DNA of 64,000 nucleotides from Bactericera cockerelli. Its lineage: Eukaryota; Arthropoda; Insecta; Hemiptera; Triozidae. Below the pieces are notes generated by a model, which made no database searches, was not told the origin of the DNA, and saw only the letters and a list, made by a program, of their open reading frames with translations. Shown here piece after piece: positions 355 through 43,199 of this stretch. The stretch covers positions 21,019,321 through 21,083,320 of the forward strand of contig CM044963.1 in the NCBI GenBank assembly GCA_024516035.1, read 5' to 3'. How positions within the stretch are numbered: the stretch's first letter is position 1; the number at the start of each line of letters is the position of its first letter. Position numbers and translations under genes: made by a program.

Positions 355-557
355 CGGAAGGCCAGCAGCTCCCGCACATTGGCGGCCATGGGCGTCACGT
401 GGCGGGCGATAATCTCGTCCAGGTCCTCGAACTCTTCGGTCCCAATCCAGAGGGAGCGGCCCAGGGAGAACGAGTTCTCCTTGCCCTCCTCCCGCACGTC
501 AATGTGCTGGTACAGGTCCTCGGACACTTTCCACGTCACGGTGAGGTGGTCGGCGCC
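355..557 (-). CDS. Spt6: SPT6 exon 27: body of the first SH2 domain
   Basis: Residues about 1367-1434. It continues the SH2 fold that starts in exon 26, with readable segments [20 protein letters not shown] and [16 protein letters not shown]. The acceptor is CCCCAG at the 558 side and the donor is CG|GTGAGC at the 354 side. It enters in phase 0 and leaves 2 nt over. Confidence 0.95.
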
Positions 558-3500
558 CTGGGGGAGTGAAGAGGTGCAGTCCCGTTAAGTGATGATGGGT
601 GCAGTCCCGTTAAGTGACGATGGGTGCAGTCCCGTTAAGTGACGATGGGTGCAGTCCCGTTAAGTGACGATGGGTGCAGTCTCGTTAAGTTGTTTGAAAA
701 AAATAACATTTAAATTGTTAAAAAAAAAAACAAAACAAAAAAAAAGGAAATTGTTATTGAACTTTTTCGAATTGAACTTAAGTTTTTGATATTGAACTAA
801 AGTTCGAATTGTTATTGAACTTGAGTTGTTTAAAAACCAACATTTAAATTATTTAAAAAAAAGGAAAAAAAAAAAATGTTATTGAACTTTTTTGATGAAA
901 ATTTATTCGCAGGATTAGTTCAGTACGATAACTCACCTTGCTAGAAGGCACCTTAGGATAACTCACCTTGCTAGAAAAACATGTGTAAAACCCGTTAAAA
1001 TGATAAAAAAAAACAAAAACAAAAAACTTGCTAGAAGGGCGCACGATCACTCACCTTGCTAGAAGGGCGCACGATCACTCACCTTGCTAGAAGGGCATAC
1101 GATCACTAACCTTGCTAGAAGGGCATACGATCACTCACCTTGCTAGAAGGGCATACGATCACTCACCTTGCTAGAAGGGCGCACGATCACTCACCTTGCT
1201 TGAAGGGCGCACGATCACCAATATTGCTAGAAGGGCGCACGATCACTCACCTTGCTAGAAGGGCGCACGATCACTCACCTTGCTAGAAGGGCGCACGATC
1301 ACTAACCTTGCCAGAAGGGCATACGATCACTCACCTTGCTAGAAGGGCGCACGATCACTCACCTTGCTAGAAGGGCGTACGATCACTCACCTTGCTAGAA
1401 GGGCATACGATCACTCACCTTGCTAGAAGGGCGCACGATCACTCACCTTGCTAGAAGGGCATACGATCACTCACATTGCTAGAAGGGCGCACGATCACTA
1501 ACCTTGCCAGAAGGGCATACGATCACTCACCTTGCTAGAAGGGCGCACGATCACTCACCTTGCTAGAAGGGCGTACGATCACTCACCTTGCTAGAAGGGC
1601 GTACGATCACTCACCTTGCTAGAAAGGCATACGATCACTCACCTTGCTAGAAGGGTGCACGATCACTCACCTTGCTAGAAGGGCGAACGATAACTCTCTC
1701 ACCTTGCTAGAAGGGCGTACGATCACTCACCTTGCTAGAAGGGCGAACGATAACTCTCTCACCTTGCTAGAAGGGCGCACGATCACTCACCTTGCTAGAA
1801 GGGCGCACGATCACTCACCTTGCTAGAAGGGCGCACGATCACTCACCTTGCTAGAAGGGCGTACGATCACCTCGCCCTGGTCCATGTTCTTCATCCACTT
1901 CTCCGCCTCGGCGAAGGAGATGTTGTGGAAGGCGGGATGCACGATGACCCGCTTGACGTACTGCTGTCTCTGCTTGATCTTCTTGCCGTCCTCTTCAGTC
2001 TTCCTGTCCTTCTTCTCCGCGGCGTAGTCGTAGTACGGGTCCTTGGGAGGCCTGGGGGACAGCGGGAGGGAAGAGGTCAGATTTTAACGTTGCCAAATGT
2101 TTTCCTTTCTATTGTTTAAAGCGGATAAAAAAATGTTTTTTTTTTTTTTTTCTTTCTTTTTTTACTCGTATAGGTCAAATAAACAATGAATTTCTGAAGT
2201 TTCAACGTTCAAATTTTAAGTTTAAAAATGTAAAAAGAAGCAGAGTACAAATTATCGAAGAGATGAAATATATTGAGAATGAACGGGTATTTCATGGAGA
2301 AACAGAAGACTGTATGGAAAAAAAATAAATGAATAAACAATGCCAGATTTTTTTCTCTTAATATTGATACCCTGGAACAGGTCATGATAGCTGTTGTACA
2401 TATTAATAAAAATGGCTTCAAATATTATAGAGGTTCGGTCTTATGAACATGAGCTGCAATATTAAAGATAATCAGTCAAAGTAACACCATAGCGTGTACA
2501 TTTAGGAAGTGAGGAAACGAACCCCAGTTGCATGGAAACGCCACATAGCGCGACACCATAGCAAAGAACATTTCTCGCGGTCTATTTATGTTTATGTTTG
2601 ATGTATTTATGTTTATGTTTACATTTGATACGGGCGAGGGACGAGGAGAGGAGACTCCTTTGCGATACTAGCACTGAGGACGCCACAATGTAGGCCGGCG
2701 GGAGTTTCCACACTTCTTAATTTTACACGCTATGGTAACACTACAACAGCCTTAAGTCCAGCTATCTTTTCCAAATCTAGCCACACAGTTATAATTATGA
2801 TTGGGAAGTTCACTAATCTAGCACATTAACGGGTACACTAGCAATGTTTTGGATCTGCTTTTTTACTTTCCTTATCTTATAATAAGGAAAGTATTGTATT
2901 CTTTTTAATACTAACGTTTATTTACCAAATAGGATGATCAAGTCTTTAGAGAAGGGGATTTTACCAGCCATAAGCTAGAAACCTACAATAACCTCGCCGA
3001 GCCTGGGTTAAGCCGGTTACAATACAATTCTCACCTCCATTCATTGTTCGTATCATTCAGATCCGATGTTCGACTCGTGGCCTCTACATAGAACCTCTCT
3101 GTGTCGATCTTGATGATTCTGCAATGGATTGTTTGGCCTGGAAGTAGCAGAAATGAGAGTTCAACACAAATGAAATCAATTGTTTTGATAAGGTTTTCTA
3201 TTTTTTGTGTAAGTCACACCAACTCAAACCCAAACTTGATGAAAATTGTATAATTCTCAGAGGGATATTTTGTTAAGTAGTGTCGAGTAACTCTATCCTC
3301 AACATGTTGGCTCTTCAAAAAGAGTGACTCATAAGTTGCCCCTTCAATTCAACTCACCTCGAGTAACTAACTCTATTCTCAACATGTTTGCTCTTCAAAA
3401 AGAAAGACTAATAAGTTGCCCCTTCAATTCAACTCATCTCGAGTAACTCTATCCTCAACATGTTGGATCTTCAAAAAGAATGACTGATAAGTTGCCCCTT

Positions 3501-6500
3501 CAATTCAACTCACCTCGAGTAACTCTATCCTCAACATGTTGGCTCTTCAAAAAGAATGACTAATAAGTTGCCCCTTCAATTCAACTCACCTCGAGTAACT
3601 TTATCCTCAACGTGTTGGCTCTTCAAAAAGAATGACTCATAAGTTGCCCCTTCAATTCAACTCACCTCGAGTAACTCTATCCTCAACATGATGGCTCTTC
3701 AAAAAGAAATGCTAATAAGTTGCCCCTTCAATTCAACTCACCTCGAGTAACTCAATCCTCAACATTTTGGCTCTTCAACAAGAAAGACTAATAAGTTGCC
3801 CCTTCAATTCAACTCACCTCGAGTAACTAACTCTATTCTCAACATGTTGGCTCTTCAAAAAGAAAGACTAATAAGTTGCCCCTTCAATTCAATTCACCTC
3901 GAGTAACTAACTCTATTCTCAACATGATGGCTCTTCAAAAAGAATGACTAATAAGTTGCCCCTTCGATTCAACTCACCTCGAGTAACTAACTCTATACCG
4001 ACCTCAGTAGCTTGATCGATAAGGCAACGGACTTGTAACCTGGAGGTCGGTGGTTCAAGTCCCTAAAAATGTCACAAAAGATATATCTAAGGTTGCAGTG
4101 ACAAAGAGCTTTCGTAGCCGATAGCCCTACCTTTACCAATACCAAACTAACTCTATTCTCAACATGATGGCTCTTCAAAAAGAATGACTCATAAGTTGCC
4201 CCTTCAATTCAACTCACCTCGAGTAACTCTGTCCTCAGGACTAGTCACCTCACTATCACTCAACTTCTTGATGTGGATATACCCGGTGATTCCGTTGTCC
4301 AGCCGGATTCGAACTCCGGTCGCCTGACCAGGACACCCGCCCGCGTCGAAATGGTTCCACACCTAAGGAGAACACAAATATCTGTTCAAGAGAATGCCCC
4401 GGAGTCCTAGAGCTACATTATGAAACAGGATCTATAAAGCTAAGCCAGACACGCCTGGCGTGTTTTAACCAATCACAGCAAACTATAGCCCGAGTATAGG
4501 GTTGGATGGAAGAGATTGCCATAGGCAATAACCCCGCCCTTTAGTTAGGACATATGTTTATATAATATATACTTTTCTATTCTTTTTTCTTTTTATTGTA
4601 TATATTGTTTCCATTTTTTCATTGTTAAAATTATTATTTGTATGTATATAATGTCCATTTATATCTAATACTAGCGGGTTACACCCGCCGCTTCGCCAGC
4701 CCATCAACACAAACACAACACACACCCACACACACCACCCACACACACACCACACACACACACACAACACACCACCACACACACACACCACACCACCACA
4801 CACACACACACACACACACACACCACACACAACACACCCACACACACACCACACACACACACACACACACACCCCACACACACACACACACACACCACAC
4901 ACACACACACACCACACACACACCCACACACACACACACACACCACACACACACACCACACACACACCACACACACACACACACACACCCACACACACCA
5001 CACACACCCACACCCCCACACACACACCACACACCACACCACACACAACACACCACACACACACACACCACACCACCACACCACACCACACACACACCAC
5101 ACCACACACACAAAACACACACACACACACACACAAAATGTCATTTAGGTTTGAAAAAAAACCTGAATATTTTTTGTCGCCCATCTATTTTCTGGCCTTC
5201 CCCGGCGTAGCTCAAGAATGGCTCATCAGAATTTCGCGATCAATATGTCAAATGAAAGCCTAAACCCTTGCCTAAAACTTTCTCGCTCTGAGTTGATAGG
5301 TCGTCACTTCAAATTTCGAGAAAAAATGTCATTTAGGTCAAAAAACGTGAATATTTTACATGTTACCCATCCATTTTTTTACCTTACCCGGCGTAGCTCA
5401 AGAACGGCTCATCAGAAATTCGCGATCGATATGTCAATTGAAAACTCAAGCCCTTGCCTAAAACTTTCTCGCTTTGAGTTGATAGGTCGTCGCGACAAAT
5501 TTCGAGAAAAAAATGTCATTTATGTCAAAAAACGTGCATTTTTTTTGCGTCACCCATCTATTTTTTATCCTTACTCATTGTAGCTTAACCTCAGGGAGAT
5601 ATAATCTAGCCTAGAAGAATTTCCTGATCCAAGCGGACCTATGTGCAAAATTTCAGGTTTCTCGGTCAAACGGTGTGGATTTGTATAAAGAACATACATA
5701 CATACACACACACACACATACATACAGACAGCTTTCTTTTATAGATATAGATAAGGTGTTGTATGATAATAATAATAAGGGATAGTGTCCACTTGGATGA
5801 AATCAAATCCTAGATGCCGTATAATTACTTATATTTGGAATTCGAACATTTTAAACTATTTCAAATAAAATCCTAGATTATAATCCGGCTCCTAGTATGT
5901 ACAAATGTACATATTGAGAATCAAGACTGTTTAGCCAATAATGCAAAAACGTTTTCACTCTCAATTCATTTTCTCTCCTTTTGCTGTTGAGTCTTTCAGA
6001 TCTTAAGGACCAGGCACTCCACTCCCTCATTCCAAAAAGCACTCTGACTTCTGTAATGCCCAAAATATCCGTTTCAACCGTCACACAACGCATTCTGATT
6101 GGTTATTTTGATAAAATTAACCAATCAGAATGATTTGTGTGACGGCTGAGAGAGAGACAATTGGGGATGAATAGAATCACTAATGTTGCGCCTTCAAAAA
6201 GGACTGGATAAGTTGCGCCTTCAAAAAGGACTGCATTCAACCGTCACACAACGCATTCTGATTGGTTATTTCGTTAAAATATTAACCCATCAGAGAGATT
6301 TGTGTGACGGCTGAGAGAGAGAGAGAATTGGGGATTAATAGAATCACTACTAAGTTGCGCCTTCAAAAAGGTCTGCAACATTAAATAATCATCATTATCT
6401 TTCTCTTCAGTGTAGCGAATCTCACCTCGGACAGCTCCGGAAAGTCGTTCTTGAGACAGAAGGGGCACTGCCAGAGACCGGTCTCATCATTTCGGTTGGG

Positions 6501-9500
6501 GTTGGCCTTGTTCAACTGCTCCTCGGTTGGTTTCTTGTGGGTGAAGCCAGTCACGGTCGACATCACCATTTTACCTGGAGAGAAAAAACATACTTCATCA
6601 AACACAAATTCAGAAGAGCTTGTAAAAAACAAAAAAAAAAAAACAAAAAAACGAAAAAGTTCTCGCAATGGCTGATCGGTGGGTGGAAGAGATTGCCTAA
6701 GGCAATAATAACCCCGCCCTTTAGTTAGGACATATTTATATTATGTATATATTTATTAATTTTTTCTTCTATTATATTGTATATTGTATTTTCATTTGTA
6801 ATTATTTGTATTGTATATAATATGTTCTATTACCTAATAAAGTGTAAATAAATAAAATAAAATCGAATGATCGCACATAGAAATACGGTCGAATCTGTAT
6901 ATAAGAGAACTCAAGGGATTGGAAATGTTTTACCTTATATCCAAGGGTTCCTTTTTTTTTATTAGAGAGAGGTAAATCGGATCTAGAAATTGTTCTCTTA
7001 TAACGAGGTGTCTCTTAAGTCCACATTCGACTGTATGTGAATCGGGACTTTTTAAGTAAAGTTGTCTGGAGACCATCACTCCCTTCAGCTGAAGCCAAGC
7101 TGGTTACATCAACAACATTCTTGAGGATGAAAAACCATGAAATCCCGATAGTTTTTATTTAACAACTGATGAGTCGAGTGTGATCGACAACCATTTAAAA
7201 TTATGACCACATAATAATACGTCTTGGGAATAATAATAATACTGCTGGAATAATTAAATGCCCCTTTATTTCAGCAGTAAGCCCAAGACGGACTAGTGGG
7301 AATGAGACTCATTAGTCCTAGCCGGGTAGTAAAAATAAGGCGATTTTATTTCTTTTTTTTATTATCAGTGTTTCACAGGCTTTTTTCATTTTGTAGCCAT
7401 GAAACAGCAGCTACTGTATTCCCCAACTACCAGGAATATTAACCACTTGACCACCAGTGTGTGTGAAGAGAATGGACCGACCTATGTAGAGGATTCCCCA
7501 ACTACCAGGAATATTAACCACTTGACCACCAGAGTATGTGAGGAGAATGGACTGACCAATGTAGAGGATTCCCCAACTACCAAGAATATTAACCACCAGT
7601 GTATGTGAGGAGAATGGACTGACCTATGTAGAGGATTCCCCAACTACCAGGAATATTAACCACTTGACCACCAGAGTATGTGAGGAGAATGGACTGACCA
7701 ATGTAGAGGATTCCCCAACTACCAAGAATATTAACCACCAGTGTATGTGAGGAGAATGGACTGACCAATGTAGAGGATTCCCCAACTACCAAGAATATTA
7801 ACCACCAGTGTATGTGAGGAGAATGGACTGACCAATGTAGAGGATTCCCCAACTACCAAGAATATTAACCACCAGTGTATGTGAGGAGAATGGACTGACC
7901 TATGTAGAGGATTCCCCAACTACCAGGCAATAACCCCGCCCTTTAGTTAGGACATATGCATATATATTTTTTTTTTTGTTTATATTATTATTATTATTGT
8001 CAATTTTATATTTAATTTTTACCATTATTTGTCTGTATATTTGTTCTACTAATAAAGTGTTTCTAAAAAAAAAAAAAATTAACCACTTGACCACCTTTGT
8101 ATGTGAGGAGAATGGACTGACCTATGTACAGAGACTCGGGCGTCTCCTTTGTGAGCATATCGAACATCTGCTCCGTATTCACCGACACATAGGGGACTCT
8201 CAGGTCCTTGTATCTGCAGCTGAGCTCCGCGCGGATATCATACAGGGTGATACTCTTGTTGCCAAACCCCTGGAATGTAGAGAACAGAGTACAGATATCT
8301 CATGTTATTCAGTATTCACCGACACATAGGGAACTCTCAGGTCCTTGTATCTGCAGCTGAGCTCCGCGCGGATATCATACAGGGTGATACTCTTGTTGCC
8401 AAACCCCTGGAATGTAGAGAACAGAGTACAGATATCTCATGTTATTCAGTATTCACCGACACATAGGGAACTCTCAGGTCCTTGTATCTGCAGCTGAGCT
8501 CCGCGCGGATATCATACAGGGTGATACTCTTGTTGCCAAACCCCTGGAATGTAGAGAACAGAGTACAGATATCTCATGTTATTCAGTATTCACCGACACA
8601 TAGGGAACTCTCAGGTCCTTGTATCTGCAGCTGAGCTCCGCGCGGATATCATACAGGGTGATACTCTTGTTGCCAAACCCCTGGAATGTAGAGAACAGAG
8701 TACAGATATCTCATGTTATTCAGTATTCACCCACACATAGGGAACTCTCAGGTCCTTGTATCTGCAGCTGAGCTCCGCGCGGATATCATACAGGGTGATA
8801 CTCTTGTTGCCAAATCCCTGGAATGTAGAGAACACGTAGAACACAGTACATATATCTCATGTTATTCAGTATTCACCCACACATAGGGAACTCTCAGGTC
8901 CTTGTATCTGCAGCTGAGCTCCGCGCGGATATCATACAGGGTGATACTCTTGTTGCCAAACCCCTGGAATGTAGAGAACAGAGTACAGATATCTCATGTT
9001 ATTCAGTATTCACCCACACATAGGGAACTCTCAGGTCCTTGTATCTGCAGCTGAGCTCCGCGCGGATATCATACAGGGTGATACTCTTGTTGCCAAATCC
9101 CTGGAATGTAGAGAACACAGTAGAACACAGTACATATATCTCATGTTATTCAGTATTCACCCACACATAGGGAACTCTCAGGTCCTTGTATCTGCAGCTG
9201 AGCTCCGCGCGGATATCATACAGGGTGATACTCTTGTTGCCAAATCCCTGGAATGTAGAGAACACAGTAGAACACGTACATATATCTCATGTTATTCAGT
9301 ATTCACCCACACATAGGGAACTCTCAGGTCCTTGTATCTGCAGCTGAGCTCCGCGCGGATATCATACAGGGTGATACTCTTGTTGCCAAACCCCTGAAAT
9401 GTAGAGAACATAGTAGAGAACATCTGTACCTATCTACTTTATACCTGTCTCTCCAGCTCCTCCGCGAAGGCGTCCAGATCCAGATCCTTGAGTCTGTCCG

Positions 9501-12500
9501 GAGTCTTGAGTATCTCCTCTAGGGCCCCTATAAACCTGTCTACACTACACTATACAAGTCTACACTATACAAGTCTATACCTGTCTCTCCAGCTCTTTAT
9601 ACTACACCTATCTATAATATACAAGTCTATACCTGTCTCTCCAGCTCCTCCGCGAAGGCGTCCAGATCCAGATCCTTGAGTCTGTCCGGAGTCTTGAGTA
9701 TCTCCTCTAGGGCCCCTATAAACCTGTCTACACTACACTATACAAGTCTACACTATACAAGTCTATACCTGTCTCTCCAGCTCTTTATACTACACCTATC
9801 TATAATATACAAGTCTATACCTGTCTCTCCAGCTCCTCCGCGAAGGCGTCCAGATCCAGATCCTTGAGTCTGTCCGGAGTCTTGAGTATCTCCTCTAGGG
9901 CCCCTATAAACCTGTCTACACTACACTATACAAGTCTACACTATACAAGTCTATACCTGTCTCTCCAGCTCTTTATACTACACCTATCTATAATATACAA
10001 GTCTATACCTGTCTCTCCAGCTCTTTATACTACACCTATCTATAATATACAAGTCCATACCTGTCTCTCCAGCTCTTTATACTACACCTATCTATAATAC
10101 ACAAGTCTATACCTGTCTCTCCAGCTCCTCCGCGAAGGCGTCCAGATCCAGATCCTTGAGTCTGTCCGGAGTCTTGAGTATCTCCTCCAGAGCCCCTATA
10201 GTCCCTATACACCTGTCTATACTATACACCTGTCCACACTATACAAGTCCATACCTGTCTCTCCAGCTCTTTATACTACACCTATCTATAATATACAAGT
10301 CCATACCTGTCTCTCCAGCTCTTTATACTACACCTATCTATAATATACAAGTCCATACCTGTCTCTCCAGCTCTTTATACTACACCTATCTATAATATAC
10401 AAGTCTATACCTGTCTCTCCAGCTCTTTATACTACACCTATCTATAATATACAAGTCCATACCTGTCTCTCCAGCTCTTTATACTACACCTATCTATAAT
10501 ATACAAGTCTATACCTGTCTCTCCAGCTCTTTATACTACACCTATCTATAATATACAAGTCCATACCTGTCTCTCCAGCTCTTTATACTACACCTATCTA
10601 TAATATACAAGTCTATACCTGTCTCTCCAGCTCTTTATACTACACTTATCTATACTATACAAGTCTATACCTGTCTCTCCAGCTACTATACACCTATCTA
10701 TAATATACAAGTCTATACCTGTCTCTCCAGCTCCTCCGCGAAGGCGTCCAGATCCAGATCCTTGAGTCTGTCCGGAGTCTTGAGTATCTCCTCCAGAGCC
10801 CCGGCAGGGTTCGTGTCCTCGTCGTCATACTCCAAAGCGTCCACCGCCATCTTTCGGGCCCACTCGTACGTCTCCGGGTGAACTCGGGACCCGTCCAGCA
10901 CCTCCACATATGCATCCGTGCTGGGGGGAAAAAATAATAATAATATAATAACACTCTTCAGTGGAAACATAAAATAAGATTTTTCCCAAAAAAAAAAAAA
11001 AATATTGAACACAAATTATGATTGGTTTCACTCTATGATTTTTCTTTTCATGTCATGTTAAGTAAGTCCTAGTCAATGTCATAGTCTTTATTGTGTATTT
11101 AGTAAGTATTTTTGTTTTTTTTTTATGTATACTCAATTACTCATGCAACAGATCATTAACAATGTAAAAAAATATAATATACCCTTTTAAAGGAGGCCCT
11201 AGCCCATTTATGTGGGTGACAATGGGGCTTTATAAATAAATAAATAAAAAACTCTTTAGTGGAAGGTAACCACCAGGCGAGCTTGATGTTTAAAGCATTT
11301 TCTACCACCTAACCCTCAGAGTCTTAATATTATGTGGTTACAAACTCAAATTAATGAGGAAAAATTCGTGCACTGGGTGGGATTCGAACCAACGGATCCC
11401 TACGCTACCTGGATTACCAGACTAGCGCGTTAACCACTTGACTACCAGTGCACAAAAATGGTCGCGCACGATTAGCTCGGTGGACAGGTGCTCCTCGCCT
11501 ACCATATGGAAGATCCAGGGTTCGAACCCCCTGTATGCGTGCTTGTCTCACGGACACGGAATTATTATTCTGACTTAAGTTGGGACAAAAAAAGAATCAC
11601 ATACAGATCCATAGAATAAATAAAAAAAGTTTTCATATTAATCACTTTCGTGATATCACAACTACTCAAACTCGCTTTACTAAATCTACGTTGAAACCGG
11701 GACTTGAACCACCGACCTCCTGGTTACAAGTCCGCCGCCTTATCGATCAAGCTACTGAGGTGGGTGATAGAATATATAAAGAAACGTTTATTTGGAACAG
11801 AAATAGTACATACATTAAAATTGATACCTACATCAGAACAACTGATTCCAATTCAGCTTCTTTGCTGAGGATATCCATGGTAATAAACCTAATTTAATAG
11901 CAATCAAGAAAATTAGGAATGGCTTTAATTTTCTTAAGTTGAAACCACGATCTTCTGCGGCTTAAAAATATTTTAACAGAGCTGTATGAAAGAAGAAAAA
12001 CAAATCTCCAACTCTAAATGGAGGCATATTTTGTCAATATTACAGTAATACCTACCTACCTCTCAAAACTCAAATGACGTGTAACTAAAAGTTTTAAAAA
12101 ATATATCATATTTTTGTTAAAAAACTGAAGTGAAATCACTCAAAATCGCTGTATTAAATCTAGGCTGAAACTGGGACTTGAACCACCGACCTGTAAAGCT
12201 TTTCGTGGTTGAAAACCCTTCAAATTCCATTTATGAAGGTTTAAACAAAAGTAACAATTAAAATAAAAAATAAAAAAAAGTTGGAGGTGCGGGGCATCGA
12301 TCCCCGTACCTCTCGCATGCTAAGCGAGCGCTCTACCATCTGAGCTACACCCCCTGAGTGAGGAAGGAGGAGAAAGTAGATCAATATAAATCTGACCACA
12401 GCACGCGGGCAGTGTTCTGTTGATTGAAGTATCGAGGTCAAGAAGGCAACGTGTTGTTCATATTCGACCGAAATAACTTGTTCTTAAATCAGACATAATA

Positions 12501-24500: not shown

Positions 24501-25327
24501 ATTTTTACCACATAATAATACGTCTTGGGCTTACTTCTGGAATAATGGGACATAATAGTCCTAATCGGGCAGTATGAATGTGCACTGGTAGTCAAGTGGT
24601 TAACGCGCTAGTCTGGTAATCCAGGTAGCGTAGGAATCCGTTGGTTCGAATCCCACCCAGTGCACGATTTTTTCCTCATTAATTTTGAGTTTGTGACCAC
24701 ATAATAATAAGACTCTGAGGGTTAGGTGGTAGAAAATGCTTTGAGCATTACCCTCGCCTGGTGGTTAACTTCCACTAAAGAGTGTTATAAGGCGATATTA
24801 TTATCTGACATGAACATTTATTTTGTTTTTACATTTGATACATTAGAAGGGACAATTCAGTCCTATTCGTTAATTTTGAAATCATATGACCTACACAAGT
24901 AGGTCTTATCAATTATGTGTTGAGGAAACTTCTGACTAGCTGACAAGTTTGTAATATGATGGATTTCTGAATGAGGACACTTCTTGAATGATGAACATTG
25001 ATTATTATTATTACATCTCTTCCACCCAACTCTTCCAGCACCAGTAGGTACTCACGTGTAGATCGGATGACTCTCGTCTATCTCCTTGATCCCGCGTTTG
25101 GTCGGGGTCACCGAGATCTTGGCCCACTCGATATTATTATTATTATCTCTTCCACCCAACTCTTCCAGCACCTTCCAGCACTCTTTCCTTAACACCTTTT
25201 TTTATTTTATTTTACATGTATACCTAACTTTTATATATTTTTATTTTATACTGATATATGTATTTTTTCCAACTTTATACAATTGTATTTTAATATTGTA
25301 TACAATAAACATGGGTAAACCCCGTTA

Positions 25328-25367
<40 letters not shown>

Positions 25368-28300: not shown

Positions 28301-31300
28301 TTTTTTCAAGTTTTACGTAGGGACCAGGCGGTAAAGTCGCTGTTGAATCCTGGGGACCAAATTTTTTTTTTTTGCATATTTGGCATCGTATTTGTACAAG
28401 AATCGATCCTATATCTGTTCTAATACTAACAACCTACCTCAAAAAGGCCATATATGGATGTCCGGTCCCTCGTTAATTTTGATAACAGCCACATGTGTGT
28501 TTTGGTCCCAAAGAAAAACACAAAAACATCCACATATGGCCGTTCGGTAACGAACGTGTTAAGTAGGTCCGCGTGTTTATAAAAATGGATTCGTAATCCG
28601 TAATTAAATAAAATAAAAGAATGAGAAAATTAATTGAAACGTAAAAAACTCACTGATCTTGGCTTTCCGACACAAGGAGTAGGGTCCACACCTGTTGGCT
28701 GGCTTCACCTTCTCTGGCTCCTCCTCATTCTCCTTGTTATTCTCCACCACCTCCTCCTCATCATCTGTCACCTCCACCTGGGAATATAATAGGTAACCAC
28801 CTGGTAATGCATGGGAATATAATAGGTAACCACCTGGTAATGCATGGGAATATAGTAGGTAACCACCTGGGTATGCATGGGAATATAAAAGGTAACCACC
28901 TGGGTATGCATGGGAATATAAGTCTTCAATTGCACTATGCAGAAGATAATAGACATGTGTCTTTCATTGAAATAGACATGCTTAGTTTTAACTCATTAAC
29001 GCCTGAACTGTTGGAAAACGTTGATCCATTTTGAAAAAATATATATCAAAATTCTGATAGAACAACTGATAAAACTGTCAAGTAAAATTCAGAAGGTAGC
29101 GAATGTTGTCAAGAATGAGAACTATAATGTTATAAAGTGGTAACATGTGCCGTATTGAACTAACAGGTCAGAAACTTGCACTGCCTCCATCGTTGCCATA
29201 TAGCAACACTAGGCGTAAATGGGTTAAGACTTTTTTATTATAAACAATGGAGCCTTATCTCCAAAGACTTAAAAAAAAACTTCAACAAACCATCATCCTC
29301 CAATGCCAATCTCGTAATGGCGCCGCTGCTCGTTTCCCACTCTCTACAAATACCCCATTATGCTCAGGAGGCAGAGTAGGCCCGAATATCTAAACTGTCT
29401 GTCCTGGTAGCTCAGTGGTATAGGGTATAGGCGGCACCCTGTGAATCCAGGGGTACCAGAGGTCGTGGGTTCGAAACCCAGCCGGGACATGACAAGTTAT
29501 CCTCTTATTTGGGATTTTCACCACATAATAATACATCTTGGGCTCACTGCTGGAATAATGGGACTTGATAGTCCTGATCGGGCAGTATAAATAAGGCGGG
29601 GAAAAAAAAAAAAAAAAAACGACAGAGCCGAAAAAATTGCGACCCCGCCGGGATTCGAACCAGGGTGACCTAGCGTGCAAGCCGGGCATGCTACCACTAG
29701 GCCAAGGTCATGCTACCACTAGGCCAAGGTCATGCTACGGCTAGGCCAAGGTCATGCTACCACTAGGCCAAGGTCATGCTACCACTAGGCCAAGGTCATG
29801 CTACGGCTAGGCCAAGGTCATGCTACGGCTAGGCCAAGGTGATGCTACCGCTAGGCCAAGGTCATGCTACGGCTAGGCCAAGGTCATGCTACCTCTAGGC
29901 CAAGGTCATGCTATAGCTAAACCAAGGTCATGCTACCGCTAGGTCAAGGTCATGCTACTACCGCTAGGTCAAGGTCATGCTACCGCTAGGCCAAGGTCAT
30001 GCTACCGCTAGACCAAGGTCATGCTACGGCTAGGCCAAGGTCATGCTACCGCTAGGCCAAGGTCATGCTACCGCTAGGCCAAGGTCATGCTACCGCTAGG
30101 CCAAGGTCATGCTACCGCTAGGCCAAGGTCATGCTACCGCTAGGCCAAGGTCATGCTACCGCTAGGCCAAGGTCATGCTACCGCTAGGCCAAGGTCATGC
30201 TACCGCTAGGCCAAGGTCATGCTACCGCTAGGCCAAGGTCATGCTACCACTAGGCCAAGGTCATGCTACCGCTAGGCCAAGGTCATGCTACCGCTAGGCC
30301 AAGGTCATGCTACGGCTAGGCCAAGGTCATGCTACCGCTAGGCCAAGGTCATGCTACGGCTAGACCAAGGTCATGCTACCGCTAAGCCAAGGTCATGCTA
30401 CCGCTAGGCCAAGGTCATGCTACCGCTAAGCCAAGGTCATGCTACCGCTAGGCCAAGGTCATGCTGCCGCTAGGCCAAGGTCATGCTACCGCTAGGTCAA
30501 GGTCATGCTACCGCTAAGCCAAGGTCATGCTACCGCTAGACCAAGGTCATGCTGCCGCTAGACCAAGGTCATGCTACCGCTAGGCCAAGGTCATGCTACC
30601 GCTAGACCAAGGTCATGCTACCGCTAGGTCAAGGTCATGCTACCGCTAGGCCAAGGTCATGCTACCGCTAGACCAAGGTCATGCTACCGCTAGGCCAAGG
30701 TCATGCTACCGCTAGGACAAGGTCATGCTACCGCTAGGTCAAGGTCATGCTACCGCTAGGACAAGGTCATGCTACCGCTAGGTCAAGGTCATGCTACCGC
30801 TAGGTCAAGGTCATGCTTACCTCCTCCTCCTCCCCCTCCTCATTGGTAATGGTCTTCATCTTCTTCTTCTTCTCCTTGGGTCTGTTCAGCCTCTCCTCCC
30901 TCTCCTTCTTGCGAATGAAATCCTGCATGGCAGGGATCTGAAAAAGAGGGAACATTATATTTTTTTTTTTTACTTTCCGTCTATAAAAGCGTTGGGTGGA
31001 AGAGATTGCCACAGGCAATAACCCCGCCCTTTAGTTAGGACATATGTTTTTTTATATTTTCATTTCTTTTTCATCTTTATTGTACATGTTGTTTCTATTT
31101 TTTTTCATTGTTAAAATAATTATTTGTAGGTACATAATGTCCATTTATATCTCAAAAAGTGTTGTATAATAATAATAATAACTTTAAGGGAAGTATTTTT
31201 CGTCGAAAATTTGACCTACCCAGTTTTTCACATTTCTGGACGAATCATAGCCTCGGGCTACCAAAAAAATTGTTTTCGGCCATTCATTGGTCCGTCCGTC

Positions 31301-34300
31301 TGTCTGTGAACAAGATATCTCGAGAACGGTAAGACTTGAAATTTGGTATGGAAGTTTATTTTATTGTATATCACACGAGCCACGAAACTTTTGGTTTTAA
31401 TCAGCCGCAATCAGCGTCCACTAGGCCACAAAAGAGTGCCGCCAGGGCCTTTTCTTTGGATCGGTTAAAGATAATAAAAAATAAATAGAGAACTACATTC
31501 TATTCTATTTAATTCAATACAATTCTATTCAACTTTATTGAATTCTATTCTATTAGCTTACCTCTGGTAGCTGGTACGATTCCCAGCGAATGGAGGGTAA
31601 AACCCCCGTCCGGCTTATCTCAAGTCAGGACGTTAAAACCAAATAGAATCAATGGACATGAAAGGAGCCTAGACATTGGACCTGGCCGTCCACATAATCC
31701 TCTCACCACCGTGATTTAGGAATCTGTCCCTGTCTCGGTCCCTGTCCCGGTAGCTCAGTGGTAAAGGCGGCACTCTGTGAATCCAGAGATACCAGATGTC
31801 GTGGGTTCGAAACCCAGCCGGGACATGACAAGTTATCCTCCCATTTGGGATTTTTACCACATAATAATATGTCTTGGGCTTACTGCTGGAATAATGGGAC
31901 TTTAATAGTCCTAATCGGGCAGTATAAATAAGACGATATTATTATTATTATTATTATTCAAATTTTGGTTCTTTTTGTTGGGATTTTTTTGGGATTGGTA
32001 GGCCTTCCACGAATCCACAGGCCTCCAATCCAAATTGGTAGGCCACAGAAAGGCTGTATGGAAGGCCCTTAATCGGGCAGTATAAATAAGGCGATATTAT
32101 TATTATTACCTCACGGACACGGAATTATTGTTCTAGCTCACCTCGTGCGCGTAGTAGAGGAAGAAGTGATGCTGCATGTCCTTCACCTCCTCGGGAGTCT
32201 GGATCTTCTTGATCCACTCCACATCCTCCTCCCTCACTATTCTATTCTATTCTATTCTATTCTATTCTATTCTATTCTATTCTATTCTATTCTATTCTAT
32301 TCTCTTCTATTAGCTCACCTCGTGCGCGTAGTAGAGGAAGAAGTGATGCTGCATGTCCTTCACCTCCTCGGGAGTCTGGATCTTCTTGATCCACTCCACA
32401 TCCTCGTCCCTCACCAGTCTATTCTATTCTATTCTATTCTATTCTCTTCTATCAGCTCACCTCGTGCGCGTAGTAGAGGAAGAAGTGATGCTGCATGTCC
32501 TTCACCTCCTCGGGAGTCTGGATCTTCTTGATCCACTCCACATCCTCCTCCCTCACCAGTCTATTCTATTCTATTCTATTCTATTCTATTCTATTCTATT
32601 CTATTCTATTCTATTCTATTCTATTCTATCAGCTCACCTCGTGCGCGTAGTAGAGGAAGAAGTGATGCTGCATGTCCTTCACCTCCTCGGGAGTCTGGAT
32701 CTTCTTGATCCACTCCACATCCTCGTCCCTCACCAGTCTATTCTATTCTATTCTATTCTATTCTCTTCTATCAGCTCACCTCGTGCGCGTAGTAGAGGAA
32801 GAAGTGATGCTGCATGTCCTTCACCTCCTCGGGAGTCTGGATCTTCTTGATCCACTCCACATCCTCCTCCCTCACCAGTCTATTCTATTCTATTCTATTC
32901 TATTCTATTCTATTCTATTCTATTCTATTCTATTCTATTCTATCAGCTCACCTCGTGCGCGTAGTAGAGGAAGAAGTGATGCTGCATGTCCTTCACCTCC
33001 TCGGGAGTCTGGATCTTCTTGATCCACTCCACATCCTCGTCCCTCACCAGTCTATTCTATTCTATTCTATTCTATTCTCTTCTATCAGCTCACCTCGTGC
33101 GCGTAGTAGAGGAAGAAGTGATGCTGCATGTCCTTCACCTCCTCGGGAGTCTGGATCTTCTTGATCCACTCCACATCCTCCTCCCTCACCAGTCTATTCT
33201 ATTCTATTCTATTCTATTCTATTCTATTCTATTCTATTCTATTCTATTCTATTCTATTCTATCAGCTCACCTCGTGCTACCGCTAGGTCAAGGTCATGCT
33301 ACCGCTAGGACAAGGTCATGCTACCGCTAGGTCAAGGTCATGCTACCGCTAGGTCAAGGTCATGCTTACCTCCTCCTCCTCCCCCTCCTCATTGGTAATG
33401 GTCTTCATCTTCTTCTTCTTCTCCTTGGGTCTGTTCAGCCTCTCCTCCCTCTCCTTCTTGCGAATGAAATCCTGCATGGCAGGGATCTGAAAAAGAGGGA
33501 ACATTATATTTTTTTTTTTTACTTTCCGTCTATAAAAGCGTTGGGTGGAAGAGATTGCCACAGGCAATAACCCCGCCCTTTAGTTAGGACATATGTTTTT
33601 TTATATTTTCATTTCTTTTTCATCTTTATTGTACATGTTGTTTCTATTTTTTTTCATTGTTAAAATAATTATTTGTAGGTACATAATGTCCATTTATATC
33701 TCAAAAAGTGTTGTATAATAATAATAATAACTTTAAGGGAAGTATTTTTCGTCGAAAATTTGACCTACCCAGTTTTTCACATTTCTGGACGAATCATAGC
33801 CTCGGGCTACCAAAAAAATTGTTTTCGGCCATTCATTGGTCCGTCCGTCTGTCTGTGAACAAGATATCTCGAGAACGGTAAGACTTGAAATTTGGTATGG
33901 AAGTTTATTTTATTGTATATCACACGAGCCACGAAACTTTTGGTTTTAATCAGCCGCAATCAGCGTCCACTAGGCCACAAAAGAGTGCCGCCAGGGCCTT
34001 TTCTTTGGATCGGTTAAAGATAATAAAAAATAAATAGAGAACTACATTCTATTCTATTTAATTCAATACAATTCTATTCAACTTTATTGAATTCTATTCT
34101 ATTAGCTTACCTCTGGTAGCTGGTACGATTCCCAGCGAATGGAGGGTAAAACCCCCGTCCGGCTTATCTCAAGTCAGGACGTTAAAACCAAATAGAATCA
34201 ATGGACATGAAAGGAGCCTAGACATTGGACCTGGCCGTCCACATAATCCTCTCACCACCGTGATTTAGGAATCTGTCCCTGTCTCGGTCCCTGTCCCGGT

Positions 34301-37300
34301 AGCTCAGTGGTAAAGGCGGCACTCTGTGAATCCAGAGATACCAGATGTCGTGGGTTCGAAACCCAGCCGGGACATGACAAGTTATCCTCCCATTTGGGAT
34401 TTTTACCACATAATAATATGTCTTGGGCTTACTGCTGGAATAATGGGACTTTAATAGTCCTAATCGGGCAGTATAAATAAGACGATATTATTATTATTAT
34501 TATTATTCAAATTTTGGTTCTTTTTGTTGGGATTTTTTTGGGATTGGTAGGCCTTCCACGAATCCACAGGCCTCCAATCCAAATTGGTAGGCCACAGAAA
34601 GGCTGTATGGAAGGCCCTTAATCGGGCAGTATAAATAAGGCGATATTATTATTATTACCTCACGGACACGGAATTATTGTTCTAGCTCACCTCGTGCGCG
34701 TAGTAGAGGAAGAAGTGATGCTGCATGTCCTTCACCTCCTCGGGAGTCTGGATCTTCTTGATCCACTCCACATCCTCCTCCCTCACTATTCTATTCTATT
34801 CTATTCTATTCTATTCTATTCTATTCTATTCTATTCTATTCTATTCTATTCTCTTCTATTAGCTCACCTCGTGCGCGTAGTAGAGGAAGAAGTGATGCTG
34901 CATGTCCTTCACCTCCTCGGGAGTCTGGATCTTCTTGATCCACTCCACATCCTCGTCCCTCACCAGTCTATTCTATTCTATTCTATTCTATTCTCTTCTA
35001 TCAGCTCACCTCGTGCGCGTAGTAGAGGAAGAAGTGATGCTGCATGTCCTTCACCTCCTCGGGAGTCTGGATCTTCTTGATCCACTCCACATCCTCCTCC
35101 CTCACCAGTCTATTCTATTCTATTCTATTCTATTCTATTCTATTCTATTCTATTCTATTCTATTCTATTCTATTCTATCAGCTCACCTCGTGCGCGTAGT
35201 AGAGGAAGAAGTGATGCTGCATGTCCTTCACCTCCTCGGGAGTCTGGATCTTCTTGATCCACTCCACATCCTCGTCCCTCACCAGTCTATTCTATTCTAT
35301 TCTATTCTATTCTCTTCTATCAGCTCACCTCGTGCGCGTAGTAGAGGAAGAAGTGATGCTGCATGTCCTTCACCTCCTCGGGAGTCTGGATCTTCTTGAT
35401 CCACTCCACATCCTCCTCCCTCACCAGTCTATTCTATTCTATTCTATTCTATTCTATTCTATTCTATTCTATTCTATTCTATTCTATTCTATCAGCTCAC
35501 CTCGTGCGCGTAGTAGAGGAAGAAGTGATGCTGCATGTCCTTCACCTCCTCGGGAGTCTGGATCTTCTTGATCCACTCCACATCCTCGTCCCTCACCAGT
35601 CTATTCTATTCTATTCTATTCTATTCTCTTCTATCAGCTCACCTCGTGCGCGTAGTAGAGGAAGAAGTGATGCTGCATGTCCTTCACCTCCTCGGGAGTC
35701 TGGATCTTCTTGATCCACTCCACATCCTCCTCCCTCACCAGTCTATTCTATTCTATTCTATTCTATTCTATTCTATTCTATTCTATTCTATTCTATTCTA
35801 TTCTATTCTATCAGCTCACCTCGTGCGCGTAGTAGAGGAAGAAGTGATGCTGCATGTCCTTCACCTCCTCGGGAGTCTGGATCTTCTTGATCCACTCCAC
35901 ATCCTCCTCCCTCACCAGTCTATTCTATTCTATTCTATTCTATTCTATTCTATTCTATTCTCTTCTATTCTATCAGCTCACCTCGTGCGCGTAGTAGAGG
36001 AAGAAGTGATGCTGCATGTCCTTCACCTCCTCGGGAGTCTGGATCTTCTTGATCCACTCCACATCCTCCTCCCTCACCAGTCTATTCTATTCTATATTCT
36101 ATTCTCTTCTATTCTATCAGCTCACCTCGTGCGCGTAGTAGAGGAAGAAGTGATGCTGCATGTCCTTCACCTCCTCGGGAGTCTGGATCTTCTTGATCCA
36201 CTCCACATCCTCCTCCCTCACCAGTCTATTCTATTCTATATTCTATTCTCTTCTATTCTATCAGCTCACCTCGTGCGCGTAGTAGAGGAAGAAGTGATGC
36301 TGCATGTCCTTCACCTCCTCGGGAGTCTGGATCTTCTTGATCCACTCCACATCCTCCTCCCTCACCAGTCTATTCTATTCTATATTCTATTCTATTCTAT
36401 TCTATCAGCTCACCTCGTGCGCGTAGTAGAGGAAGAAGTGATGCTGCATGTCCTTCACCTCCTCGGGAGTCTGGATCTTCTTGATCCACTCCACATCCTC
36501 CTCCCTCACCAGTCTATTCTATTCTATATTCTATTCTCTTCTATTCTATCAGCTCACCTCGTGCGCGTAGTAGAGGAAGAAGTGATGCTGCATGTCCTTC
36601 ACCTCCTCGGGAGTCTGGATCTTCTTGATCCACTCCACATCCTCCTCCCTCACCAGTCTATTCTATTCTATATTCTATTCTCTTCTATTCTATCAGCTCA
36701 CCTCGTGCGCGTAGTAGAGGAAGAAGTGATGCTGCATGTCCTTCACCTCCTCGGGAGTCTGGATCTTCTTGATCCACTCCACATCCTCCTCCCTCACCAG
36801 TCTATTCTATTCTATTCTATTCTATTCTATCAGCTCACCTCGTGCGCGTAGTAGAGGAAGAAGTGATGCTGCATGTCCTTCACCTCCTCGGGAGTCTGGA
36901 TCTTCTTGATCCACTCCACGTCCTCATCCCTCACCAGTCTCACATCCTCCGGGATGGGCGCGTCCAGATCTCGCGTCAGAATCTCGGTCTGGTAGACGCG
37001 CATGTTTTCGTACAACTTCTGCAGCGAGCTCTTGCGGGACTTGAGCTGGCACCACTGGAAATAGAATAGGAAATAGAATAGAAATAGAATAGAAATAGAA
37101 TAGAAATAGAATAGAAATAGAATAGAAATAGAATAGAAATAGAATAGAAATAGAATAGAAATAGAATAGAAATAGAATAGAAATAGAATAGAAATAGAAT
37201 AGAAATAGAATAGAAATAGAATAGAAATAGAATAGAAATAGAATAGAAATAGAATAGAAATAGAATAGAAATAGAATAGAAATAGAATAGAAAGACGCGC

Positions 37301-40300
37301 ATGTATTCGTACAGCTTCTGCAGCGACCTCTTGCGTGACTTGAGCTGGCACCACTGGGGAGGAGAGGGCGGATGCGAGACGACATTAAAATTAAATAAGT
37401 AGTCACCGATGGAAGTTTACTTTAAACACCTGAGAATCTGAGAGGTAGTTTAGCCATTCCTGAGTACTGAGAGTGTACACTTGTATACAGTGCACTAACC
37501 ATTAATACGAAGAGCTTAGATCTTGAGCTATCTTGGTAAGGTCGGTGGTTCAAACCCAAGTATAATAAAAATTATACTCATCTTATAAGAAGTCACCGTG
37601 GCAGAGTAGGTTAGTGCGCTAGGCATTGCACGCACGGTGACCTGGGTTCGATCCCCAGCGGGGCATGATTTTTTCTGCACTGTTCTTGGGTGTTCGAGGT
37701 CCACTCATACCTCGTGAGGAAAAATGAGTAGTGACTTGTATGAGTAACAAGAGTGTATACCGAAATGCTTAAAATATAATAAAAAATAATAATTCCTCCA
37801 CTGTCTGGCTACCATCGTTCACGCTGAGGCCACCCTATGATGATGATAATGAAAAGATTTCTCACCTTGGCATCGTACTTGTACACTTTCCACAGGTCGG
37901 AGATGGTAAGCTCTGGCTGAACGTACTCTTTCCGATAGAAAGCTATGAACGGGACCTCCAACTGCTGGTTTCGCATGAAGTCGAGCGCTTTCTTGATCTT
38001 CGCGATGGTCTGGGTGCCTTTCTTTGATTTGGTGCGAGGGTCAACGCCTCCCTCGCAATCCTGAGGAGGGAAAGCAAATTAATAATTGACAACAACAAAA
38101 AAAAGTATAAGTGATATGAGAATAATAAAAATTAATAAGTAATTACTTTTTTTTAAGAAGGTAAGTGTGCCCCGGAACCGCTTTTGCATTACTTCAGAGC
38201 ACTTTACCTTTACATACATGCCATTCCGGAAACGGAAAATTTCGGTCAGAAATTTCCGCTCCGGCCGGGATTCGAACCCGCAACCTCCGGGTCAGTAACC
38301 AATGCTCTTGACCACTGAGCAAGTAATAATTAACAAACACATAAAATAGGTAAACAAATTAATACTAAGTTATTTCAATGTTACTTTACACATGTTATAA
38401 AGTCAGTAACATTAAATTTAAAAAAAATAATTTTATGAATTGATCTTATCCCTAATCACAACAATCCATACTGACTAACATCAGTCATTGCCCGGAAAGC
38501 AAAAATAAATGTAAATAGTAGATGTTTTACATAAAAATAAAAATACTGACCCGCTTGAAAAGCCAATCATTTGCCATTTTGCATATTTAACTGAGTGTAT
38601 TTTCATGCGCTTGAAAGACGATGTAACTTCTGTTATTGATATAAAAAATACCAGACCAAACAATGTTGAGTAAGTTACGAAAAGAACAAAATTCTCGTCT
38701 CAAATGGCCTACATGTTGAAGAGAGAATTAAAAAAAAGTGTTCAATTTCATATTATTAAAATAAATTCTTTATTAATAGGACACATGTACAAACAATTGA
38801 AATAATAAAAATTAAAAAATAAAATTGAGAAAAATATAAACAAAAAAAAAAGATAAACAACATAGGTAAAATATATAATTATGTCTTAACCTAACGGCGG
38901 GGTTATCGTCTATGGCAATCTCTTCCACCCAACTTTTACTAAAGTATTGAACCTCTGGTAGACTAGTATAGGTATGTCAGGTTTCAGTGTTTCTTTCTTC
39001 CTCTTTCTTACGGGAAACAAAATAGAGCTATTTTGTTTAAGCTTAAACTTAAACTATTTTGTTTTAAGTATTGTTTTCTTTTGATAATTTTTTTTCTGAA
39101 TTATATAATTTCTATAATATTTTTAATGTGAAACACATACTTTTGTATTTTATATCTTTTTCACAATAAATAAATTGAATTGAAAATACCTGCGTGGATA
39201 CGCTGGGTTTGGCGTACACCTGATTGTAGATCCACTTGGATTCCTCATCCAACTCATCGCTTCCCTCTGGTACTGAAGTGACCTGGGAAACAAAAATGTA
39301 AAATCAATATCTACTAGAAGAGAATAGAAATAGAATAGAAATTACCTTGTTTATACTACCGAGGTTACTCTAAAAAGTCCCTTTATTCCAGCAGTCTAAA
39401 CATTTGTTTATTTTCTTGTTAATTTTCAAATTTAAATAGACATTTTGTACATACATTTATTATTCTTAATTCTGTGTTTCTGTGAACTGTAAACCTCACT
39501 CAGATTCGACTATCGCATTATAAATGTTCAATCAAGAATGAGGACATCGATACCTTTCATTTAAATCCCCATTCGATAGGTTTTAATTAAAATATATCAA
39601 CCGGCCCTTTTTTTTGGCCCTTTTTCGACTCTTCAGGAATTGAACCCAGATCACTGTGAATACAAGGCTAATGCACTACGCCATTAGCCACAGTGACTAC
39701 TCAGAATTATGACATATTATAAATTTTATATAAATAAATGTTTAACAACACTCACATCTTACAAATAAAATATCTATTCCATTGGCTCAGTGCAAGGTAA
39801 AGAGCCTAATACACTCGCACTGTTTCCCCGCTGAATGGCTAAGGATAGCCTTTCAACCAGGAAACAACGCGAGCGTGGCTCTTTACTAATTTTTTTTCAG
39901 AAGACCCCCGATTTTGTTTATAAAATCCACTGTCTCGGTTGCCCAGGGCCCAAGGGTCTCCACTGCAAGGGCAACAAAATGGTGACTTTGGGCAATATTT
40001 TGGTATTTTGAATGTTTGTTCCTTGCAGCAGTTTCCCCTGGGTATCCTGGGACCAGAGAACTTCCTAAGTAAGTTTTTGCCATCGAATCCACACATGTAG
40101 CATCCCAAACTAAAAACCGACCCTTTTCCCAAGCCACCATCGTAATCCCATCTGGTCTTTTACCATCGTCTCTAAACAAACCATTAGGTTCTAGTCTCGA
40201 GCAGATATTTGCAGTTGACAACGCTCGCTGTATTATTTGGTTAATCTCAGTATGTCTTGAGAATCTACCAGCACTGAACTTGCAAGTGAGGCCATGTCTA

Positions 40301-43162: not shown

Positions 43163-43199
<37 letters not shown>

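Follow-up and report, generated by a model that had tools for sequence, protein, structure and literature searches.

Repeats that carry splice sites are known inside introns from introner-like elements, in which a single family of sequences has spread to many sites. Exon stuttering, described in chicken (Hron et al., 2026; PMC12954441), shows the same pattern as the locus reported here and has tentatively been linked to the GC-rich, G4-forming and highly recombining dot chromosomes of birds; GC-rich, G4-prone dot-chromosome DNA was proposed as a correlate and is not strictly defining (PMC12954441). In the excerpt of PMC6792250 used here, chicken genes of high GC content, among them TNFa and MRPL52, have introns that consist largely of tandem repeats, with intact exons. 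For Drosophila, the excerpted part of PMC2891723 has a new intron arising when a tandem duplication takes in a splice junction or proto-splice site. The sequence-only reading of our locus held that no description of its pattern existed, which the chicken report contradicts: exon stuttering itself is known, and what is new is an AT-rich insect case without the features suspected as causes in birds.

The window, a stretch of 64,000 nucleotides from Bactericera cockerelli, contains the SPT6 gene on the minus strand. The gene model comprises 27 exons in a single open frame, with every intron of the GT-AG type, and its terminal exons were placed at 46262–46300 (exon 1) and 355–557 (exon 27); exons are numbered as in the sequence-only reading. 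In the alignment listed, residues 1–1431 of human SPT6 match the gene product in a single stretch. The product is approximately 91% identical to the proteins of the psyllids Cacopsylla and Diaphorina (91% to Cacopsylla P0121), and the longest gap against P0121 does not exceed 3 residues. The [G + C] content is 38.1% in the introns and 54.0% in the exons. The evidence on SPT6 comes from one gene in one assembly, and the features are listed in Table 1.

Table 1. SPT6 and the repeats at its exon borders (positions in the window).
Feature	Position	Strand	Evidence
SPT6 gene, exons 1–27	355..46300	-	Gene model; matches to human and Cacopsylla/Diaphorina SPT6; 3' end beyond window
28-bp × 30 array, exon 26 donor copies (24 nt exon + GTGAGT)	1027..1870	-	Tandem-repeat and spanning-copy analysis
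76-bp × 9 array, exon 24 donor copies; insertion with repeated target site separates array from exon	3283..3988	-	
67/75/142-bp array, exon 22 donor copies	7418..7932	-	
137-bp × 9 array, exon 22 acceptor copies with ~95 nt exon	8175..9419	-	
52/188/298-bp compound array, exon 21 donor copies	9440..10733	-	
29-bp × 11 array; minus the tRNA-like insertion, start would equal exon 20 donor	13100..13574	-	
62-bp × 7 array, exon 20 acceptor copies	14007..14444	-	
Exon 19 donor, three spaced copies (each 23–87 nt exon)	14830..15155	-	
30/96/126-bp array, exon 18 donor copies; second donor would be in frame	15906..16455	-	
Exon 17 acceptor side, weak: local repeats extend 4 nt into exon	18374..18779	-	
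60-bp × 9 array, exon 16 donor copies (44 nt exon)	19321..19849	-	
46/68/70/111/132/181-bp compound array, exon 15 donor copies (≤86 nt exon)	20420..22304	-	
Exon 14 donor, one displaced copy, 76 nt exon + 6 nt intron, 96% identity	25050..25131	-	
28-bp × 2 repeat from exon 13 donor (3 exon bases)	26456..26516	-	
33-bp × 4 array adjoining exon 12 acceptor; units with CAG|GTGG	28779..28921	-	
22-bp × 51 array, begins ~4 nt past exon 11 donor	29687..30817	-	
142/144/177/319-bp arrays, exon 10 donor copies (102 nt exon); part recurs at 32134–33277	34683..36940	-	
Exon 10 start, 61-nt copy (within 37293–37357); 11-bp × 21 array between copy and exon 10	37058..37357	-	
66-bp × 3.4 array, exon 6 acceptor copies	41406..41630	-	
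Perfect tandem duplication, 30726–33277 = 33275–35826, shift 2549, 3-bp overlap; exon 11 doubled	30726..35826	-	

A copy was scored as junction-spanning when it lay in the adjacent intron and included at least 6 nt on the exon side and at least 6 nt on the intron side; four exon 11 matches were excluded, as they reflect only the segmental duplication with its 2,549-bp shift. Spanning copies are present at 13 of the 53 SPT6 junctions, with donors (exons 10, 14, 15, 16, 18, 19, 21, 22, 24, and 26) outnumbering acceptors (exons 6, 20, and 22) by 10 to 3. Five further junctions, the donors of exons 11, 13, and 20 and the acceptors of exons 10 and 12, have abutting or partial copies, and acceptor 17 is a weak case only. 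The claim that nearly every intron edge from exon 10 to exon 26 is built from such copies was therefore overstated, since 12 of these 34 edges pass under the strict definition. Ten of the 12 donors originally listed carry spanning copies; those of exons 13 and 20 do not, although arrays abut both. Among the six listed acceptors, those of exons 22, 20, and 6 stand, whereas the other three drop out: at exon 10 the first part of the exon recurs as a 61-nt copy but with a different flank, and at exons 12 and 17 only approximately 4 exonic nt lie in the repeats. The donor of exon 11, absent from that list, is followed closely by a 22-bp array. Array units in SPT6 are mostly 22–188 bp long, with many per array, and some arrays are wholly intronic (e.g., 5156–5574 and 6073–6375).

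Local duplications account for 48% of SPT6 intron bases, versus 3.5% outside the gene. The arrays might accordingly be ordinary intronic minisatellites that strike exon borders merely because repeats fill half of the intron space, and the existence of purely intronic arrays, such as the two named above, fits this view. So does base coverage, which was tried first and failed to separate junctions from introns (48% of intron bases duplicated versus 13 of 53 junctions spanned, no junction excess), and which was replaced by tests of founder-unit placement and edge distance. Within SPT6, 11 of the 29 TRF arrays have a founder unit that spans a junction, where 2.63 were expected (P = 2.6e-6), and 15 of 26 arrays have an edge at most 20 nt from a junction, where 4.80 were expected (P = 6.4e-6); for the 16 arrays listed with at least 3 copies the latter figures are 12 and 3.55. 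Both tests used 55 junctions, counting both copies of exon 11, and excluded rows with a period below 10 or low entropy. The unit-placement test used all 29 arrays; the edge-distance test omitted three TRF rows (31497, 32134, and 33275) that are repeats of the segmental duplication, and scored arrays separated from a junction by an insertion as not touching it. An excess of arrays at junctions over random placement thus gains support inside SPT6 from the two placement tests and none from base coverage. Given the excess at SPT6 borders in both placement tests, ordinary minisatellites are quite unlikely to account for the pattern.

The copies are also local. We applied the screen of Hron et al. 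to SPT6 alone (blastn-short, at least 20 nt and at least 42.1 bits), without manual review or multi-source filter and with one shuffle as background, in which the top match reached 16.4 bits. It picks out 10 exon-intron pairs, which are distributed over 9 of the 26 SPT6 introns; all 56 copies are in forward orientation, and the smallest distance to the exon border is 0 in 10 of 10 pairs. Matches in non-adjacent introns number seven, all of exon 10 in the intron between exons 11 and 12, and are attributable to the segmental duplication. The sequence-only reading of a repeated local process, as opposed to one repeat family, is supported: exon edges have no copies in non-adjacent introns except via this duplication, and we found no single sequence family at many SPT6 intron sites, as introner-like elements would have. 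An interspersed element lies near several borders and was considered as a cause; it was set aside, being present outside the gene too and generally absent from the arrays. The GC content of exons picked out by the screen is slightly above that of the remaining exons (0.562 versus 0.517, P = 0.034). The arrays contain no G-quadruplex motif, the two motifs in the 64 kb (18270–18296 and 2037–2070) both lying outside them. Two scans of bacterial and viral collections for stray psyllid DNA found none.

Misjoined or repeated stretches of reads could also produce such arrays during assembly. Exon 11 is surrounded by a perfect 2,552-bp tandem repeat, and the excerpted text of the Diaphorina citri genome paper describes both false tandem duplications and spurious exon copies (PMC11659978); the two observations point in this direction. 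The array copies, on the other hand, are not identical, their flanks being on average 86–99% identical to the native junction in 12 of 13 cases (100% only in the single exon 14 copy); their short, numerous units are unlike haplotype duplications, and the reading frame of the 27 exons is intact. In the exon 24 array, moreover, an insertion whose 12-base target site is repeated splits the array between its first two junction copies, so that the exon 24 duplication predates the insertion. The tRNA-like insertion that parts the exon 20 array from its donor has a repeated 12-base target site on its flanks as well; the order of array and insertion can be read from the DNA for exon 24 only, not for exon 20. 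An assembly origin of the arrays is therefore unlikely. The perfect 2,552-bp repeat, with breakpoints inside the exon 10 and exon 11 arrays, may itself be an assembly error and was counted against exon stuttering.

The copied splice sites are largely intact, with GT or AG kept in 124 of 127 spanning copies. The 9-mer of the true donor recurs in 99 exact copies across eight introns, up to 24 further exact copies being held by a single intron, and the decoy donors, nearly all intact, mostly match the true site in strength. Read-through to the next donor copy meets a stop in 10 of 11 donor arrays, and exon 18 alone stays open; the count is limited to donors whose 7-mer next recurs in an array copy, 11 in all, and leaves out exon 11, for which the next identical 7-mer, 1,808 nt away, is not an array copy. 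The stops suggest that productive splicing should start from the exon-proximal donor. Intact, strong decoys and the predominance of donors could also reflect a selected function, in which rows of donor sites attract U1 snRNP, aiding splicing or shielding the long transcript. Arrays at acceptors would not fit such a role, however, and an alignment of the copies from 11 arrays to a unit centred on the junction shows no greater conservation at the splice site: 12 of 99 splice-site columns vary, against 64 of 650 other columns (P = 0.48), and for donors taken alone the figures are 11 of 72 and 46 of 412 (P = 0.32); in this alignment the exon 22 donor row, with only 3 copies, has an undefined mean and the exon 6 row holds only 2 copies. 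A selected function is thus very unlikely. Special conservation of donor copies, read at one stage from the 124 of 127 intact sites, was dropped, since that count had preselected junction-spanning copies and the effect vanished on alignment.

Tandem duplication of an AG|GT proto-splice site had also been put forward as a route to new introns. Under this model (the Rogers model) introns would be born from the arrays, with donor and acceptor derived from the same duplicated sequence. Array units in SPT6 do contain AG|GT, and in the excerpt of PMC4974935 a tandem duplication across an intron-exon border in potato did create an intron. The contexts of donors and their own acceptors in SPT6, however, agree at 13.8 of 56 positions, against 13.6 of 56 for unrelated pairs, and the comparison with Cacopsylla P0121 leaves no gap longer than 3 residues. 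This part of the sequence-only reading is not sustained, and intron gain is a highly improbable explanation.

We conclude that the SPT6 arrays probably represent exon stuttering in an insect gene, with a probability of about 0.74. Each array would start from a short tandem duplication of tens to approximately 180 bp, with one breakpoint in the exon edge and the other in the intron, which would place a copy of the exon edge and its splice site in the intron. Such a duplication would be tolerated, as the exon itself survives together with one undamaged splice site. From two copies on, slippage, unequal exchange or conversion may expand it into a minisatellite, and transposons could later insert into the array. 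Separate events of this kind would have taken place at a dozen or more SPT6 borders, and in productive splicing the exon-proximal donor (or acceptor) would be used and the decoys ignored.

The AT-rich insect case, with arrays that lack G4 motifs, suggests that stuttering is separable from the candidate causes in birds, and it provides another, independent lineage for the search for the mechanism. More tentatively, and with considerable doubt, duplication across exon-intron borders may be ongoing in AT-rich, G4-poor genes of psyllids and perhaps of many animals; stuttering could then be an instability of exon borders in general, with possible ties to transcription, to splicing or to the change in GC content where exons end, and GC-rich bird microchromosomes would not be its source. 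The SPT6 arrays are also natural tests of splice-site choice, in which only the first of many donor copies should give a useful product. Copied exon edges may furthermore enter gene models, as is suggested by the Diaphorina citri SPT6 model, in which the tail of exon 26 is tandemly copied and the copy ends exactly on the exon 26 border. This copy was also counted in favour of exon stuttering, with the reservations that the model is a predicted protein that also misses exon-sized blocks and that false tandem duplications are reported from assemblies of D. citri (PMC11659978).

Introner-like elements and the SPT6 arrays both carry splice sites within introns, but the arrays derive from their own junctions. 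With the Drosophila system, as presented in the excerpt of PMC2891723, SPT6 shares tandem duplication across a junction, the outcome of a new intron being found only there. TNFa and MRPL52 resemble SPT6 in having repeat-built introns and spared exons, but their repeats are G-rich and G4-forming, unlike those of SPT6, and the excerpted text does not note junction copies (PMC6792250). Chicken exon stuttering (Hron et al., 2026; PMC12954441) differs in its host, a bird instead of an insect, and in its setting of GC-rich dot chromosomes with predicted G4 structures, an association absent from SPT6, with introns of 38% GC and arrays without a G4 motif. Interspersed elements occur among the SPT6 arrays, whereas chicken dot euchromatin reportedly lacks them, and extensive within-species variation in intron length, a main feature in chicken, compares with a single assembly for SPT6 (PMC12954441). 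By the screen of Hron et al., expansions hold 1–44 copies in chicken and 1–14 in SPT6, and the flagged introns are 3.4% of those annotated on chicken dot chromosomes versus 9 of 26 in this one gene (PMC12954441). Chicken exon stuttering is nevertheless the closest match: in both systems the repeats are of local origin with their source at the exon border, exons are intact, introns are full of locally expanded repeats of tens to hundreds of bp, and the lateral part of an exon is copied together with its splice site into the adjacent intron (PMC12954441).

The gene for the transcription elongation factor SPT6 was modeled on the minus strand in 27 exons (E1–E27), whose introns are GT-AG without exception and consistent in phase. 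The joined product comprises 1,433 residues with no stop anywhere, and human SPT6 gives a single phmmer alignment with it (residues 1–1431). Its closest relatives are the psyllid proteins of Cacopsylla melanoneura (P0121, an entry presumably derived from transcript data) and Diaphorina citri (P0122 and P0123), at 90–91% identity, which places the window in a psyllid or a near relative. Compared to P0121 no gap is longer than 3 residues. Exon-sized blocks are missing from both D. citri models, which appear to be defective.

SPT6 contains many tandem arrays identified with TRF. For the junctions, 120 nt on each side were searched against the window, and only copies extending 6 nt or more past the junction in each direction were retained. 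Ten donors (E10, E14, E15, E16, E18, E19, E21, E22, E24, and E26) and three acceptors (E6, E20, and E22) passed this search; four further E11 matches were left out, as they reflect only a perfect 2,552-bp tandem repeat. Reading of the sequence added arrays that begin at or almost at the junction (E11, E13, and E20 donors, E12 acceptor). At the exon 10 acceptor, the start of the exon recurs as a 61-nt copy on the far side of an 11-bp array, and the case of the E17 acceptor is weak (4 exon nt). The sequence-only reading had placed such arrays at nearly every SPT6 intron edge from exon 10 to exon 26; they are real and striking, but their extent was partly overstated.

Local duplications make up 48.2% of SPT6 intron bases, 23.5% of exon bases and 3.5% of the remaining window. 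Because intron sequence is about half repeats, junction coverage alone provides no evidence of enrichment. When every array was counted as one founding unit of period length, a junction was spanned by 11 of 29 arrays against 2.63 expected with random placement (P = 2.6e-6), in a test that is conservative because of long compound periods. We also placed 26 arrays at random within the gene, on condition that they overlapped at most 110 exon bases and contained no whole exon. The observed counts exceed the random ones for arrays that include a junction (10 versus 3.84 expected, P = 2.2e-3) and for arrays no more than 5 nt (12 versus 4.09, P = 1.8e-4), 20 nt (15 versus 4.80, P = 6.4e-6) or 50 nt (15 versus 6.16, P = 1.7e-4) away from one.

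The simplest account would be that short tandem duplications arose repeatedly, each having a breakpoint inside the exon edge and a second one in the intron; they would be tolerated as an intact exon and splice site are left, and the arrays would then grow by slippage or unequal exchange. Exon sequence contributes between about 1 nt (E11 and E20 donors) and 102 nt (E10 donor) to the unit, a spread in line with random breakpoints that chance to straddle the border. Among the junctions crossed by copies, donors outnumber acceptors (10 versus 3), and selection against additional upstream acceptors may underlie this excess. Intron gain through tandem duplication has been reported in Drosophila (PMC2891723); for SPT6, where such duplication had been raised as a route to new introns, we found no indication of intron birth.

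Compared with the native junction, the flanks of the copies have a mean identity of 86–99% in 12 of 13 cases and of 100% in the lone exon 14 copy. The splice dinucleotide is kept in 124 of 127 spanning copies, a figure that does not indicate constraint on splice sites, as the copies had been selected for crossing the junction. Aligning the copies of 11 arrays to the junction-centered unit revealed no extra conservation at splice-site columns (12/99 variable versus 64/650 elsewhere, P = 0.48), and youth or homogenization of the arrays probably explains why the decoys are intact. In exon 24, an insertion with a 12-base stretch repeated at its flanks separates the native donor from the next junction copy; the duplication therefore predates the insertion. 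At exon 20 a tRNA-like element, bordered by identical 12-base stretches, lies between the donor and a 29-bp array that would otherwise begin at the donor; this array may have grown before or after the insertion.

Exact copies of the true donor 9-mer number 99, spread over eight introns, each with copies of its own donor. At 11 of 13 donors tested the next identical 7-mer is an array copy; the exon 20 donor has none within 2.5 kb, and the one following the exon 11 donor, at a distance of 1,808 nt, does not come from an array copy. Reading on to the next array-copy donor meets a stop in 10 of 11 cases, so that the exon-proximal donor should be the productive one, presumably picked first-come or by exon definition. 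Only exon 18 stays open, and its second or third donor, if used, would add 10-residue repeats to SPT6.

The duplication that doubles exon 11 has both breakpoints within arrays, those of exons 10 and 11, with a 3-bp overlap. Either it arose very recently or it stems from an assembly error; in the first case, arrays may seed larger rearrangements. In the predicted D. citri protein P0123, the final 28 residues encoded by exon 26 are present twice (period 33 residues), the second copy continuing directly into exon 27. The window carries a 28-bp array at the matching border, which suggests that this border was affected independently in both species. False tandem duplications, however, have been reported in D. 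citri assemblies (PMC11659978).

Other elements were observed in the window. Over its first ~95 nt a U1-like sequence agrees well with U1, with ACUUACCUG among the matching bases close to the 5' end, and its 3' part is degenerate; it is probably a truncated U1 pseudogene. The tRNA-like matches look like tRNA-derived SINEs. The interspersed element GGGGTTATTGCCTGTGGCAATCTCTTCCACCCAAC is frequently close to SPT6 junctions, yet is found outside the gene too.

Features located in the window
Feature	Position	Strand	Remarks
SPT6	46300–355	-	gene model
Exon 18 donor array	15906–16455	-	30-bp unit; first copies in frame, stop-free
Exon 11 duplication	30726–33277 = 33275–35826		perfect, 2,552 bp, tandem; shift 2,549
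U1 snRNA-like sequence	27911–28062	-	intron 12; 69.8 bits vs cut-off 69.5
THAP/P-element-like transposase	49107–52740	-	THAP + P-transposase HTH 51886–52740; TNP-like RNase H + GTP-binding 49107–51032
Interspersed element	4501, 14827, 15148, 27719, 30991, 33540, 38899, 58134		8 matches at ≤3 mismatches; shuffles mean 0.00
tRNA-like matches	11368–11451, 12282–12354, 24582–24665, 31743–31826, 34292–34375		Thr, Ala, two unassigned
Imperfect (AC)n tract	4707–5135		about 430 bp; intron 23

The sequence-only reading took the pattern to be undescribed, but the same kind was recently reported from chicken dot chromosomes as exon stuttering (Hron et al., 2026; PMC12954441), where 190 of 5,572 introns (3.4%) pass the screen. 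Rerunning this screen on SPT6 at the published thresholds, with one shuffle and without manual review or multi-source filter, yielded 56 copies, all forward, in 9 of 26 introns; the exon border was reached in 10 of 10 flagged exon-intron pairs, and the best shuffled match scored 16.4 bits. In the open-licence literature PMC12954441 was the one paper found under the names "exon stuttering" or "sequence stuttering", and none of the titles and abstract beginnings listed concerned such arrays in insects, though reports may exist elsewhere. As possible causes Hron et al. consider high GC, G4 structures and meiotic events, and they mention GC-rich genes of gerbils (data not shown; PMC12954441). SPT6 introns are AT-rich (38.1% GC versus 54.0% in exons), and the 64 kb hold only two G4 motifs, both outside arrays. 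Flagged exons are slightly higher in GC than the others (0.562 versus 0.517, P = 0.034), and the GC step at exon edges is one candidate cause of frequent border events. The value of the SPT6 case lies in its occurrence in an insect, in AT-rich DNA.
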